Of a DNA stretch of 64,000 bases, positions 1,815 to 8,463 are shown piece after piece. This DNA comes from an uncultured Methylophaga sp. (lineage in GTDB: Bacteria; Pseudomonadota; Gammaproteobacteria; Nitrosococcales; Methylophagaceae). The translations under genes and the position numbers were made by a program. Location: positions 62,001 through 126,000 of the forward strand of contig NZ_CAMYKO010000004.1 of the NCBI RefSeq assembly GCF_947259025.1, in the 5' to 3' direction. Numbering within the stretch: position 1 is the first letter of the stretch; the number at the start of each line of letters is the position of its first letter. Below the pieces are notes generated by a model. The model was not told where the DNA came from. It searched no databases and saw only the letters and a list, made by a program, of their open reading frames with translations.

Positions 1815-2762
1815 ATGACGATTTTTATCTACGAACATCTTACCAGCGGCGCGCTGGCCGACACCGTCTTTTCCGAAGGATTGCTGCGTGAAGGTGATTT
1901 GATGCTGCAGGCCATATGCCGGGATCTGCTGGTACTGGGGCATACACTTTGTGTCATGCGTGATGCCCGTTTGCCAGCCATTGAAGCCCAGCCCGAGCTC
2001 AGACAGATCCGCATCACGACTGAGTCTGATTATGCTGCGGCCTGGCTGCAATGCCAGCGCGATTATCAGCAGTTTATTGTGATTGCGCCGGAAACCGGCA
2101 AAGTGCTTGAGCAACTGGTCCGGCAACTGGAGCAGAACAATAAGACTCACCTGGGCGCCACTGCCGATGCCATTGCCCAATGCAGCGATAAACAGCACTG
2201 TGCTCAACTGCTGCAAAGGGCGGGCTTGCCAACCCCTGAAAGCTGGCTGGCCCCTGATTGGGCTTCACAGGCTGCAGGTGAAGATAAAAAGTGGGTGTGC
2301 AAGCCCATTGATGGCGCTGGCTGTGAAGACACCTTTCTAATGGACACACAAACGCTGAGCGGTTTTATAACCCGGCAGACTGAGGCGCATCGACAACAGC
2401 TGATGGTTCAACCTTACATTGAAGGTATCGCGCTGAGCATCAACCTGTTCATCGATGATGAAATTGAATTATTGTCCGTCAACCGCCAGCATCTCTCACA
2501 AAGCGGCTCGCAACTGCATCTGGATTATTGTCAGCCGGGTTGTGACGATCTGCTTGAGAAACAGCAGGCATTAAAACTGGCCCGGCAGATTCATGCTACG
2601 ATTCCCGGCTTATGGGGGTTTATCGGTGTTGATCTGGTTTTGTCTGATAAGGCACTGTGGATTATCGACATCAACCCCCGGTTAACGCTTTCCTATGCCG
2701 AGCCGGCCATCAGACTCAACACTAATCCGGCCCTGGCTCTGCATCGAAAATTACGCTTATGA
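1815..2762 (+). CDS. ATP-grasp ligase, probable MfnD-like tyramine/tyrosine-glutamate ligase
   Basis: This 315-residue protein has the ATP-grasp pattern: a nucleotide-binding CKPIDGAGCED near residue 160, VQPYIEG in the middle and a metal-binding DINPRLTLSY near residue 285. ATP-grasp enzymes join a carboxylate to an amine using ATP. MfnD of methanogens adds glutamate to tyramine during methanofuran synthesis, and the next genes encode MfnF- and MfnE-like proteins, so that role is likely here. It is the first gene of a five-gene operon and overlaps the next by four bases (ATGA). The fold is safe. The substrate, tyramine or tyrosine, is inferred from context. Confidence 0.7.
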   Translation: MTIFIYEHLTSGALADTVFSEGLLREGDLMLQAICRDLLVLGHTLCVMRDARLPAIEAQPELRQIRITTESDYAAAWLQCQRDYQQFIVIAPETGKVLEQLVRQLEQNNKTHLGATADAIAQCSDKQHCAQLLQRAGLPTPESWLAPDWASQAAGEDKKWVCKPIDGAGCEDTFLMDTQTLSGFITRQTEAHRQQLMVQPYIEGIALSINLFIDDEIELLSVNRQHLSQSGSQLHLDYCQPGCDDLLEKQQALKLARQIHATIPGLWGFIGVDLVLSDKALWIIDINPRLTLSYAEPAIRLNTNPALALHRKLRL

Positions 2763-3799
2763 CACAACAACAGACTGGATATTGCGGCTGGGATATCGGC
2801 GGTGCCCACCTTAAAGTCGCCCGCTGCGATCATAACGGCCAATTGCAAACCGTGCGCCAATACCCCTGTGCTTTGTGGCGGGGTATCGACGAACTGGCGA
2901 CGGTGCTACAAAAGGTTATTGACGAGCTCGACTGTCAGGCCGATATCCATGCTATTACCATGACCGGTGAACTGGTTGATGCCTTCAGCAACCGCCGCCA
3001 GGGTGTGGCAGCCATCATCGACTGTGTGGCTCAGACGCTGCCCGCCTCTTTATCTCATGTCTTTGCCGGTGACCGGGGCTGGCTATCTTTCGAGCAGGCC
3101 AAAAACCAATGGCAGTCAGTGGCTTCGATGAACTGGCAGGCCAGCGCCATGCTGGCGGCAAACCAACTGGACACGGGTCTGTTTGTCGATATCGGCAGCA
3201 CCACCTGCGATATCGTGCCTTTCCAGCAACAGCACATTCAGCCCCGCGGTTACAGCGATCATGAAAGACAACGTGATGGCGGACTGGTCTACACCGGCGC
3301 CATCCGCACACCGCTGATGGCCATCAGCAATAAGGCACCGCTGCATGGTTATTTTGTGCCCCTGGCCGCCGAGTGGTTTGCCAGCAGCGCTGATATCTGG
3401 TGCCTGCTGGATGAGCTGGGCGAAGCACAGATCCAGGATAGCAGTGCTGACGGCCAGCCCTGGCAAAAGCCATACTGCCGCCAGCGGCTGGCACGGATGC
3501 TGGGTACTGATGCCGAGGCCGCCAGCGATGATGAATGGCAGCAGGTCGCCCGCTGGTTTGCTGACAAACAACTGCAAACTATCCTGGAAGGTTGTTTCCA
3601 GGTCATCAGTGCTTCAGGACTGCCTGCTACTGCACCGCTGGTCGGTGCTGGTGTCGGCCGCTTTATGGCGAAAGCCTGCGCTCGACGCCTGAACCGGCCT
3701 TATCTCGATTTCAGTGAGCTATGTCAGCATACCGATGCCGCCGCCGATCATGCGCCGGCCACTGCATTGGCCCTTCTGGCAAAACAACAGTTGTCGTAA
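2759..3799 (+). CDS. mfnF: MfnF-like ASKHA-fold protein (H4MPT-linked C1 transfer pathway protein)
   Basis: The 346-residue product shows two phosphate-loop motifs of the actin/hexokinase/Hsp70 fold, GWDIGGAHLKVA near residue 10 and FVDIGSTTCDIVPF near residue 142, plus a late GAGVGRF. This is the COG1548/hydantoinase-like family found with H4MPT genes in methylotrophs. In methanogens MfnF condenses the aminomethylfuran diphosphate with glutamyl-tyramine to form the methanofuran core. It overlaps the preceding ligase by four bases and is nine bases from pabB, so translation is probably coupled. Family assignment is strong and the reaction is taken from the archaeal enzyme. Confidence 0.75.
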   Translation: MTQQQTGYCGWDIGGAHLKVARCDHNGQLQTVRQYPCALWRGIDELATVLQKVIDELDCQADIHAITMTGELVDAFSNRRQGVAAIIDCVAQTLPASLSHVFAGDRGWLSFEQAKNQWQSVASMNWQASAMLAANQLDTGLFVDIGSTTCDIVPFQQQHIQPRGYSDHERQRDGGLVYTGAIRTPLMAISNKAPLHGYFVPLAAEWFASSADIWCLLDELGEAQIQDSSADGQPWQKPYCRQRLARMLGTDAEAASDDEWQQVARWFADKQLQTILEGCFQVISASGLPATAPLVGAGVGRFMAKACARRLNRPYLDFSELCQHTDAAADHAPATALALLAKQQLS

Positions 3800-3808
3800 A
3801 ATAGCCGG

Positions 3809-5200
3809 ATGAGTCAGTCACGCCCACCGCTCTGCCATGAACTGCCCTATCCCGGTGACAGTGCCCGTTATTTTAATCAACTGCGGCAACATCACTGGCC
3901 CGTCATGCTGGACAGTGCCAACACCGATCCGGTCAGTGGTCGTTATGACATTCTGGCGGCCGATCCCTTTATCACCCTGGAAACCCGCGGCGAGACCACG
4001 ACCATCTCAGAACATGGTGAGCAGCGCTTTTCCGGTGATGATCCTTTTGCCCTACTCGATGGGCTGCTGAAACCGCGTCAGCAAACCTATACCGACCTGC
4101 CATTTGCCGGCGGCGCTATTGGTTACTTCGGCTATGATCTGGGCCGTCGCATTGAAAAGCTGCCGACAAGTGCGGCCGATGCTGAACATATTCCTGATAT
4201 GGCGGTGGGCATTTATGACTGGGCAGTGATCACCGACCACCAGCAACAACGCTGCTGGCTGGCCAGTTTTGGCCTGAACCCCGACACCCAGGCGCAGTGG
4301 TCAACATTGATTGCCCTGTTCAGCGAAGCCAAGAACGAGAATGAAACCGATCCCTTCCATGTTGAGGGCAGTTTGCAATGCAATCTCAGCAAGGCTGAGT
4401 ACATCAAGGCATTTCAGCGTATTCAACATTATATTACCGAAGGCGACTGCTATCAGGTCAACCTTGCCAAGCGCTTTGAAATCCAAGCCCAGGGTGATCC
4501 CTGGTTTGCCTATCAGCGTCTGCGGCAACAGAATGCCGCGCCGTTTTCAGCCTATTTCAGCTCCGGCGAAGTCACGGTAATGAGTTCCTCACCGGAGCGG
4601 CTGTTACAAATGCATCAGGGCCAGGTGGAAACCAAGCCGATAAAAGGCACCCGCCCCCGGGATCTGAACAATGCCGACAATGACCGGGCTTTGGCGGAAG
4701 CTTTGCAACAGAGCATTAAGGATCGGGCAGAAAACCTGATGATCGTAGATTTGCTGCGTAATGACCTGGGTAAAGTCTGCCGGCCCGGAACCATCAGCGT
4801 TCCCCGCCCTTTCGCACTGGAAAGCTTTGCCACCGTGCATCACCTGGTCAGCACTATTACCGGCCAGTTAGCCCGGGCGCAATCGGCAGTGTCCTTACTG
4901 CGGGCCTGCTTTCCCGGTGGCTCGATTACCGGTGCGCCCAAATTACGGGCGATGGAAATTATCGAAGAGCTGGAACCCAACCGCCGTGGTGTCTATTGCG
5001 GCAGCATCGGTTATATCGGTTTTGATGGCAATATGGATACCAATATCACCATCCGCACCCTGGTGTTCAGCGACCACAGGCTGCGCTTCTGGGCCGGGGG
5101 TGGTATCGTAGCAGACTCTCAGGAAGAGGCTGAATATCAGGAGGTACACGATAAAGCCGCAGCGATGCTGCGCTTGATCGAGGAATTACAGCAAACATGA
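3809..5200 (+). CDS. pabB: Aminodeoxychorismate synthase component I (PabB)
   Basis: PabB aminates chorismate to 4-amino-4-deoxychorismate, the precursor of p-aminobenzoate for folate and for tetrahydromethanopterin. The 463-residue protein has the chorismate-binding fold. PIKGTRPR near residue 276 carries the lysine that marks PabB, where TrpE has alanine. SSPERLL, DRAENLMIVDLLRNDLG and FPGGSITGAPKLRAMEII follow, and YCGSIGYIGFDG is near the end. It lies inside the cofactor operon and overlaps the following kinase gene by four bases. This suggests dedicated p-aminobenzoate supply for H4MPT. No glutamine amidotransferase (PabA) gene is in the window. Confidence 0.92.
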   Translation: MSQSRPPLCHELPYPGDSARYFNQLRQHHWPVMLDSANTDPVSGRYDILAADPFITLETRGETTTISEHGEQRFSGDDPFALLDGLLKPRQQTYTDLPFAGGAIGYFGYDLGRRIEKLPTSAADAEHIPDMAVGIYDWAVITDHQQQRCWLASFGLNPDTQAQWSTLIALFSEAKNENETDPFHVEGSLQCNLSKAEYIKAFQRIQHYITEGDCYQVNLAKRFEIQAQGDPWFAYQRLRQQNAAPFSAYFSSGEVTVMSSSPERLLQMHQGQVETKPIKGTRPRDLNNADNDRALAEALQQSIKDRAENLMIVDLLRNDLGKVCRPGTISVPRPFALESFATVHHLVSTITGQLARAQSAVSLLRACFPGGSITGAPKLRAMEIIEELEPNRRGVYCGSIGYIGFDGNMDTNITIRTLVFSDHRLRFWAGGGIVADSQEEAEYQEVHDKAAAMLRLIEELQQT

Positions 5201-5778
5201 GAGTGATAAAACTGGGCGGTAGCCTTTTTCATACACCGGAACTCAGACAGTGGCTGGAACTGCTGGATAGCGCCAGTCAGCAGGACACCGTGGTCATCGT
5301 CCCCGGCGGCGGACCGTTCGCCGATGAAGTACGTCACGCACAGCGCCTGCACCGCTTCAGTGACAGCAGTGCCCATCATATGGCATTACTGGCGATGGCC
5401 CAGTTCGGCCTGTTGATTGCTGATCTGGCACCTGAAAGTCAGATTTTCTATTACCCTCAACAGGATCCGCAGCAACTACCGCCGGGCTTACACGTCTGGC
5501 TGCCCGATCGCAGCCTGTTGGAGTCAAGTGAGATTTCCCATAGCTGGGATGTGAGCTCCGACAGCTTGGCACTCTGGCTTAGCCAGGAATTGGAAGCCGA
5601 TGAACTGGTCATGATCAAACGCAGCACCGTGGTTTCCAGCCGTATTCAGGCATTGATTCAACATGGTGTTATCGACAAAGGCTTCACCTCGCTCTACCAG
5701 AGAAAGCCGGTGCTGACCAAGTTATTCCATTTTCAGCAACAGGCGCTGTTCCCTGATAACGGCCTGGTTTTACGATGA
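5197..5778 (+). CDS. mfnE: MfnE-like amino acid kinase family protein
   Basis: The 193-residue product is a short amino-acid-kinase-fold protein with VIKLGGSLF at the N-terminus, VIVPGGGPFADEVR near residue 33 and a late VDKGF-like VIDKGFTSLY. MfnE of methanogens phosphorylates aminomethylfuran phosphate to the diphosphate used by MfnF, and an MfnF-like gene is two places upstream. The gene overlaps both neighbours by four bases (ATGA), the strongest coupling in this operon. Other kinases of this fold, such as aspartate or uridylate kinase, are longer. The context supports MfnE. Confidence 0.75.
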   Translation: MRVIKLGGSLFHTPELRQWLELLDSASQQDTVVIVPGGGPFADEVRHAQRLHRFSDSSAHHMALLAMAQFGLLIADLAPESQIFYYPQQDPQQLPPGLHVWLPDRSLLESSEISHSWDVSSDSLALWLSQELEADELVMIKRSTVVSSRIQALIQHGVIDKGFTSLYQRKPVLTKLFHFQQQALFPDNGLVLR

Positions 5779-6906
5779 ACCAGCCGCTGCCGGTAAGCGA
5801 AGCTAATCGCTTGCTGCAACAACTGTTTGCTGGCAGTGCAGCGGATTTAAACCTGTTGCCTGCCAACTCACAGGCTCTACTGGAAGAAGCCGAACAGCAG
5901 CGCAGCGCCGACCAGGCTGCCCATATGACACCCCGCCGGCTCGCCCCCTACAGCCTGTTGGGAATGCAACTGGCCGGCCTGCACCAGGGTAACTTGCTGT
6001 CAGCAGCGCTCTACCCTGAGCTAAAGCAAGCAGAAAGCGACACCCTGGACTGGCTGAAAAGCTTGTTCTACCTGCCTTATGCCCAGTTCAGTCATGGCGG
6101 CAGCTATAACAACCTGCAGGCTCTTTGGCAGGCCCGTGATCAGGACGGCCATAACCGCAGTACCGTCTATGCCAGTCAGGCCTGCCATTATTCGATTGCC
6201 AAAGCCTGCCGTATTCTGGGTCTGGAACTGCAACTGATTGAGACCGATGACCGGGAACAAATGCTTGTCGACGAGCTGGCTAAAGCTTGTGCAGACAAAC
6301 CACCGCTGGCAGTGGTGCTGACTGCCGGCACACCGGTGTCAGGCGGTTGGGATCCGCTTGATGAAGCATTGGAGCTTGCCGGACAAACCGGTAGCTGGGT
6401 CCATATTGATGCGGCGTGGGGCGGCGCTTTATGGACGCTGGAAACGGCTTCACTGCGGTCTGTGAGTGGACAGGCTGACAGCCTGGGCTTTGATCCGCAC
6501 AAGGCGCTGTTTCAGCCCCGTCCCTGCAGTGTCTATTTCAGCCGTCATGAATTGTCAGCTACACAAGAAACCGCTTATCTGAGAGATGCACCGAAAGACC
6601 GGCTGGCCGGCTCTCATGGCGCAGAACTGTTTCTGCCTTTATGGCTGAATCTGCAAATGCTGGGACAGCAGTGGTTTACTGAACAAACCCGCCAGCGCCT
6701 GGCCCAGGCTGATCTTTTTGCCCGGCAGCTATCACAGCTCACAGACGGTTTGGTGTTGAATAACGGCAACGGCATCATCTGCTTCTCCGCCCCGGTGGGC
6801 GCTTTACAGAATTTGGTGGCTGACGGCGTGCTGTCTTGCGCGCGCCTGAATGGTCAAAACGTGTACCGGGTGGTCTTTACCAGTTATAGCACCCGGGCCG
6901 ATGCGC

Positions 6907-6935
<29 letters not shown>
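5775..6935 (+). CDS. PLP-dependent group II decarboxylase-like protein (MfnA-like)
   Basis: The 386-residue protein has the group II decarboxylase signature: a cofactor-stacking histidine in ACHYSIAKA (His138), the aspartate of HIDAAWGGA near residue 210 and the Schiff-base lysine in FDPHKALFQP (Lys243). It is the last gene of the methylofuran operon, overlapping the kinase gene by four bases. MfnA of methanogens makes tyramine from tyrosine, and aspartate decarboxylation is another activity of relatives. Tyramine supply for the cofactor is the simplest reading here. Its 3' end overlaps the convergent damX-like gene by 29 bases, with no terminator between them. Confidence 0.7.

Positions 6936-8463
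<1,528 letters not shown>

Follow-up and report, generated by a model that had tools for sequence, protein, structure and literature searches.

Why should a methylofuran (mfn) operon in a genome of the Methylophaga family (Methylophagaceae) end in a gene for a PLP-dependent decarboxylase, and what does this say about the form of the cofactor? The gene lies at 5775–6935 on the forward strand of the window, by which we mean the whole stretch of 64,000 nucleotides analysed. That the cofactor varies among methylotrophs, as the initial annotation of this locus proposed, is true but not new. Of the nine strains studied by Hemmann et al. (2021; PMC8141765), LC-MS showed tyramine-methylofuran in six; these authors report the tyrosine form in M. 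radiotolerans and M. album, besides M. extorquens, with each strain making one form exclusively. M. extorquens nevertheless builds tyramine into its cofactor when tyramine is supplied (PMC8141765). In the same paper PF00282 decarboxylases were seen, and proposed for the role, in three of the six tyramine-type strains and were seen in none of the three tyrosine-type strains; the source of tyramine was left open in half of the tyramine-type strains, and the text available describes no candidate decarboxylase as linked to mfn genes. The word Methylophaga is absent from its main text, and a literature search, with most subscription papers outside its reach, found no paper combining methylofuran and Methylophaga. 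What is new here is a decarboxylase that is operon-linked, family-wide and family-specific, in a family that the main text of PMC8141765 does not name. In our view the product of this gene is probably a PLP-dependent L-tyrosine decarboxylase giving tyramine for a tyramine-type methylofuran, both substrate and cofactor being predicted from sequence comparison.

The mfn operon and its last gene

The operon has the order mfnD-mfnF-pabB-mfnE-decarboxylase on one strand, with the decarboxylase as its final gene and 4-base overlaps at three of its four junctions. It begins with a gene for an mfnD-like ATP-grasp ligase (1815–2762, +), whose top NCBIfam match is the MfnD tyramine--glutamate ligase (93.9 bits, under the cut-off of 400) and which overlaps by 4 bases the gene for an mfnF/orf9-type protein (2759–3799, +; TIGR03123, 324.5 bits, above the cut-off of 244.1; NF040623 MfnF, 162.7 bits, under 520). 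There follow pabB (3809–5200, +), encoding aminodeoxychorismate synthase component I (TIGR00553, 395.7 bits, above the cut-off of 328.4), and, again with a 4-base overlap, a gene for a 193-residue mfnE-like kinase (5197–5778, +; PF00696; NF040622 MfnE, 76.4 bits, under 300). The stop codon TGA of mfnE and the start codon ATG of the decarboxylase overlap in an ATGA at 5775–5778 (+). Among 23 family loci scored (24 were tried and L210 is unscored) the same 4-base overlap occurs in 20, and in three the decarboxylase starts 6 bases behind mfnE, an arrangement from which we infer, in agreement with the initial annotation, that the decarboxylase is translationally coupled to the kinase gene.

Upstream of the operon stand fae (490–1050, +; TIGR03126, 213.1 bits, above the cut-off of 118.05), which encodes formaldehyde-activating enzyme and is a marker of the H4MPT/methylofuran pathway, and a gene for a HisA-like protein (1080–1796, −; PF00977; TIGR00734, 84.6 bits, under 179.85), beside mfnD on the opposite strand. 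A HisA-like gene beside mfnD recurs in most of the methylofuran clusters examined. FhcD and MfnB are also present in this genome, outside the mfn operon. Downstream, the operon is bounded by a convergent gene (6907–8463, −) that overlaps the 3′ end of the decarboxylase gene by 29 bases; we take it to be damX-like, and the next genes in most family loci examined to be aroB and aroK. The damX-like gene contains a hexanucleotide repeat of about 7 units, read by eye, at approximately 7388–7431 of the window, which encodes a Thr-Glu run and is possibly variable in length.

The decarboxylase open reading frame is intact, starts with ATG and encodes 386 amino acids. It matches the Pfam family PF00282 with an E-value of 1.1e-29 and 103.8 bits, above the curated cut-off of 27, and is the only PF00282 gene in its genome. 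The initial description of a PLP decarboxylase within a methylofuran operon is borne out. In one alignment of 24 family members Lys243 (in the motif DPHK), His138, Asp212 and Tyr268 are kept in all 24; we take these to be the PLP lysine, the stacking histidine, the aspartate that contacts the pyridine nitrogen and the loop tyrosine, respectively. In the Sphaerobacter enzyme the aligned counterpart of Tyr268 is the residue altered in the PDB Y333 entries; in animal enzymes, judging from the numbering, it is presumably the loop tyrosine. Because Tyr268 and the other catalytic positions are kept, the sequence argues against a dead enzyme or an aldehyde synthase. One further family member outside the 24-row set (L012, from genome G054) has Asn in place of His at position 242, reading FDPNK rather than FDPHK beside the PLP lysine; a near-identical relative in G053 keeps the His of FDPHK. 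The gene is under purifying selection, with dN/dS values of 0.13–0.22 in four close pairs and 0.27 in a fifth, nearly identical pair. Since 53 of 57 family genomes have a full-length relative and dN/dS is low, the open reading frame is a real gene and not a product of chance.

Relationship to other decarboxylases

By its PF00282 score, catalytic residues and fold the protein is a member of the group II PLP decarboxylases, and the designation MfnA-like given to it at first is too specific. It scores 66.9 bits on the MfnA model (TIGR03812, 375 positions), far from the cut-off of 299.4 and below the models for diaminobutyrate decarboxylase (91.8), histidine decarboxylase (80) and PanP (73.9), on all of which it is likewise under the cut-off; MfnA orthology is thus not demonstrated by the family model. 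Two further family members behave similarly: one scores 110.1 for MfnA against 112.8 for histidine decarboxylase, and the second 88.4 for MfnA against 117.6 for diaminobutyrate decarboxylase. Missing the MfnA cut-off does not in itself exclude MfnA function, because the MfnD-, MfnE- and MfnF-like neighbours miss the archaeal cut-offs too, and yet for those resembling MfnD and MfnE the Mfn model is the top match.

The predicted structure (pLDDT 89.2) is similarly placed between families. Its fold matches include DfoJ (Z 39.5, rmsd 3.0, 359 residues aligned), GAD65 (Z 38.9, rmsd 2.8, 362 aligned), the Sphaerobacter enzyme (Z 38.3) and MfnA (Z 35.8); the highest-ranking matches are decarboxylases of lysine, glutamate, cysteine-sulfinate, tryptophan and other substrates, and MfnA ranks somewhat below them. 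This comparison covers the 50 matches listed, and absence of a fold family from these carries no weight.

In a tree of 53 proteins the family forms one clade (support 100/100) adjoining three short proteins, L059, L060 and L163 (95/92), and in a quicker tree of 90 rows the family is again a single clade adjoining these three, with lower support; the reading frames around these three genes show no recognisable context. The unconstrained tree sets the family apart from two haloarchaeal MfnA-family proteins, the sole archaeal representatives included, and forcing their union costs 14 log units, a constraint that the test does not reject (p-AU 0.101). To our knowledge haloarchaea do not have methanofuran, and the two haloarchaeal proteins may be aspartate decarboxylases.

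Distribution within and beyond the family

The order set comprises 63 genomes, 57 of them in the family of the window and six in the order's other family, presumably a Nitrosococcaceae-type family in GTDB-style naming. Comparing gene presence across methylotrophs, as the initial annotation advised, shows a full-length relative without internal stops in 53 of the 57 family genomes. Two of the four exceptions (G003 and G006) also have no mfnF, and in a third (G033) the contig terminates within pabB. G003, a genome of 1.1 Mb rated 100% complete, may have lost the methylofuran pathway through genome reduction. The fourth, G043, is a MAG, 68% complete and from the genus group of the window; it keeps mfnE and has neither the decarboxylase nor the convergent damX-like gene. 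Collinearity of this locus with two relatives holds as far as the mfnE end and resumes shortly before aroB; about 2.7 kb is missing, and about 75 bases of unmatched sequence (L257, 3810–3886) stand between mfnE and aroB. This gap is either a true loss or a misassembly; if real, it would offer a natural test of the decarboxylase's role in determining cofactor type. Two other family genomes, G025 and G051, both less than 85% complete, have the decarboxylase and no mfnF match. We read gene order in 28 family loci, picked by us from the 57 genomes, one of which is cut by a contig end; in 26 of the 27 informative loci the decarboxylase stands directly behind mfnE, the exception being G043.

Outside the family the same operon is found without this gene. 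Our class sample of 369 genomes contains mfnF in 46, of which 42 lie outside the family of the window; the count is 49 rows less three partial matches of 19–21 bits (G154, G416 and G421), and 41 of the 46 are above the TIGR03123 cut-off, with five under it at 198–225 bits. The recurrent order in the loci of other families is fae, hisA on the opposite strand, mfnD, mfnF, pabB and mfnE, with some gaps. Recognisable mfnE is present in 32 of these loci, two of which end at or just behind it at a contig edge, and in all 30 informative clusters no relative of the decarboxylase stands behind mfnE, where the next gene varies. In one of these 30 clusters, that of G301, a distantly related PF00282 gene (L180, 14381–15679) lies downstream of mfnE at a distance of about 6.6 kb and in the same orientation. 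The other family of the order has six genomes; all three loci taken from them have the mfn operon beside aroK-aroB, the chromosomal site that it occupies in Methylophagaceae, with no decarboxylase.

Outside the family, profile searches turned up nothing closely related, the next best score being 196 bits against at least 500 for the family in the class sample, and 157 against 574 bits in a phylum sample of 319 genomes; both searches scored at most 5–6 first-look candidates per genome, and a weak extra copy may escape them. Viral contigs contain no relative. In a plasmid collection 347 records match, with 25–32% identity among the 20 matches listed, and around one Variovorax match the annotation shows an Lrp-type regulator as neighbour and no mfn gene. 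The distribution is most simply read as a lineage-specific gain, in which the Methylophaga family attached the decarboxylase to the 3′ terminus of an older operon; loss in the other families would be less economical.

A different type of PF00282 enzyme occurs in some of the other methylofuran genomes. Of the 42 that lie outside the family, PF00282 genes above the cut-off occur in 16; the remaining 26 include three with weak partial matches. Five of these genes (L222–L226, in G181, G152, G234, G145 and G273, from four families) form a close-knit type scoring 744–767 bits, which from its motif we take to be of the aromatic-L-amino-acid-decarboxylase kind. A sixth genome with this type above 700 bits, G268, is a congener of one of the five with no mfnF detected, and the next best match in the 369 genomes scores 444 bits, in a search that again scored no more than five or six first-look candidates per genome. 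With the four genomes of the window's family set aside, the type above 700 bits is enriched in methylofuran genomes (5/42 versus 1/323 of the others; Fisher p 9e-5), a result that is partly circular in that the A3 alignment of five rows was built from methylofuran genomes and that its rows are related. Like the decarboxylase of the window, these are PF00282 proteins in genomes with mfnF; unlike it, they form a separate clade (100/100), are about 480–500 residues long, and have no mfn gene within the 18–20 kb taken around them. They are a candidate second source of tyramine, and this is a lead.

Candidate function and comparison with known systems

In group II decarboxylases the alpha-amino group of the substrate must be free to form a Schiff base, and amide linkage to glutamate removes this free group from tyrosine. 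Because this free amino group is required, the substrate should be free tyrosine. The decarboxylase, dedicated to methylofuran synthesis, would convert free tyrosine to tyramine and CO2, the MfnD-like ligase of the same operon would join tyramine to glutamate, and the remaining enzymes would finish a tyramine-type methylofuran. The coexistence of the PF00282 gene with the methylofuran pathway (FhcD, MfnB and the mfn operon) in its own genome supports such a route. The MfnD-like ligase fits it weakly, because tyrosine-type M. album also has an MfnD-like paralogue according to PMC8141765. Against the route stand the fit to MfnA, which is no better than to other decarboxylase families, the G043 locus with its mfnE and no decarboxylase, and three tyramine-type strains without a recognised MfnA homologue, a feature that the tyrosine-type strains share (PMC8141765). 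On balance the family-wide operon linkage, the conserved mfnE overlap, the presence of panD and the position of the gene as the sole PF00282 member lend good support to the proposal of the initial annotation that a dedicated decarboxylase suggests the tyramine form.

The relevance of panD is to the idea that the enzyme is a PanP-like aspartate 1-decarboxylase making beta-alanine for CoA, with its place in the operon incidental. PanP is among the group II decarboxylases, TIGR03799 gives a weak match, and several PDB chains of M. jannaschii MfnA are named L-tyrosine/L-aspartate decarboxylase. The 73.9 bits on the PanP model are however far under its cut-off of 606.1, an incidental neighbour is not expected to hold the mfnE overlap family-wide, and panD is present not only in this genome but in 55 of the 57 from the family and 60 of the 63 from the order. 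With panD present, beta-alanine supply does not explain the decarboxylase, and we regard the PanP-like reading as highly unlikely. Some other substrate, such as glutamate, diaminobutyrate, histidine, DOPA or tryptophan, might be used for a cofactor variant or an unrelated product, as the position of sequence and fold between several decarboxylase families would allow; we regard this as improbable, the methylofuran and methanofuran cores described in PMC8141765 holding only tyrosine or tyramine. There is, finally, a very small chance that the gene is the MfnC transaminase making aminomethylfuran for MfnE. Its product is a PLP enzyme adjoining mfnE with a second, weaker Pfam match to the class-V aminotransferases (PF00266, 25.3 bits against a cut-off of 21.5), and bacterial MfnC is given as unidentified in PMC8141765; every methylofuran maker should however need MfnC, while the gene is found in one family only in the samples searched, the decarboxylase loop Tyr268 is kept in 24 of 24 members, and the top Pfam match is the decarboxylase family.

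Tyramine-type methylofuran could have arisen more than once in bacteria through different group II decarboxylases, appended to the operon in the Methylophaga family and, elsewhere, drawn from an unlinked aromatic-amino-acid-decarboxylase clade; we offer this tentatively, at somewhat under even confidence. Were it true, archaeal MfnA would not be the source, and the decarboxylases 'missing' from the earlier survey would be further recruits. A family-wide gene coupled to mfnE in a genus with cultured species also provides for a clean genetic test of cofactor type.

Among known systems, archaeal MfnA (TIGR03812; M. jannaschii 3f9t, 6jy1 and 6lds) resembles the decarboxylase described here in its PF00282 fold, short length, short catalytic loop and linkage to furan-cofactor genes. 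Position 80 is Tyr in 22 of the 24 family rows and both archaeal rows, and Ser in 41 of the 64 other rows. Structure comparison gives an identity to MfnA of 16% over 356 aligned residues. The Sphaerobacter thermophilus decarboxylase (4rit) and the DfoJ lysine decarboxylase (5o5c) are among the best matches in both sequence and fold, with structure-based identities of 29% and 25%, and we know of no furan-cofactor link for either. Also comparable are Mfla_2033, Snov_0063 and VAPA_RS28950, PF00282 genes proposed as sources of tyramine for methylofuran (PMC8141765). Compared by their description in that paper, Mfla_2033 lies beside the mxa cluster and no mfn link is described for Snov_0063 or VAPA_RS28950, whereas the Methylophagaceae decarboxylase is placed inside the mfn operon itself.
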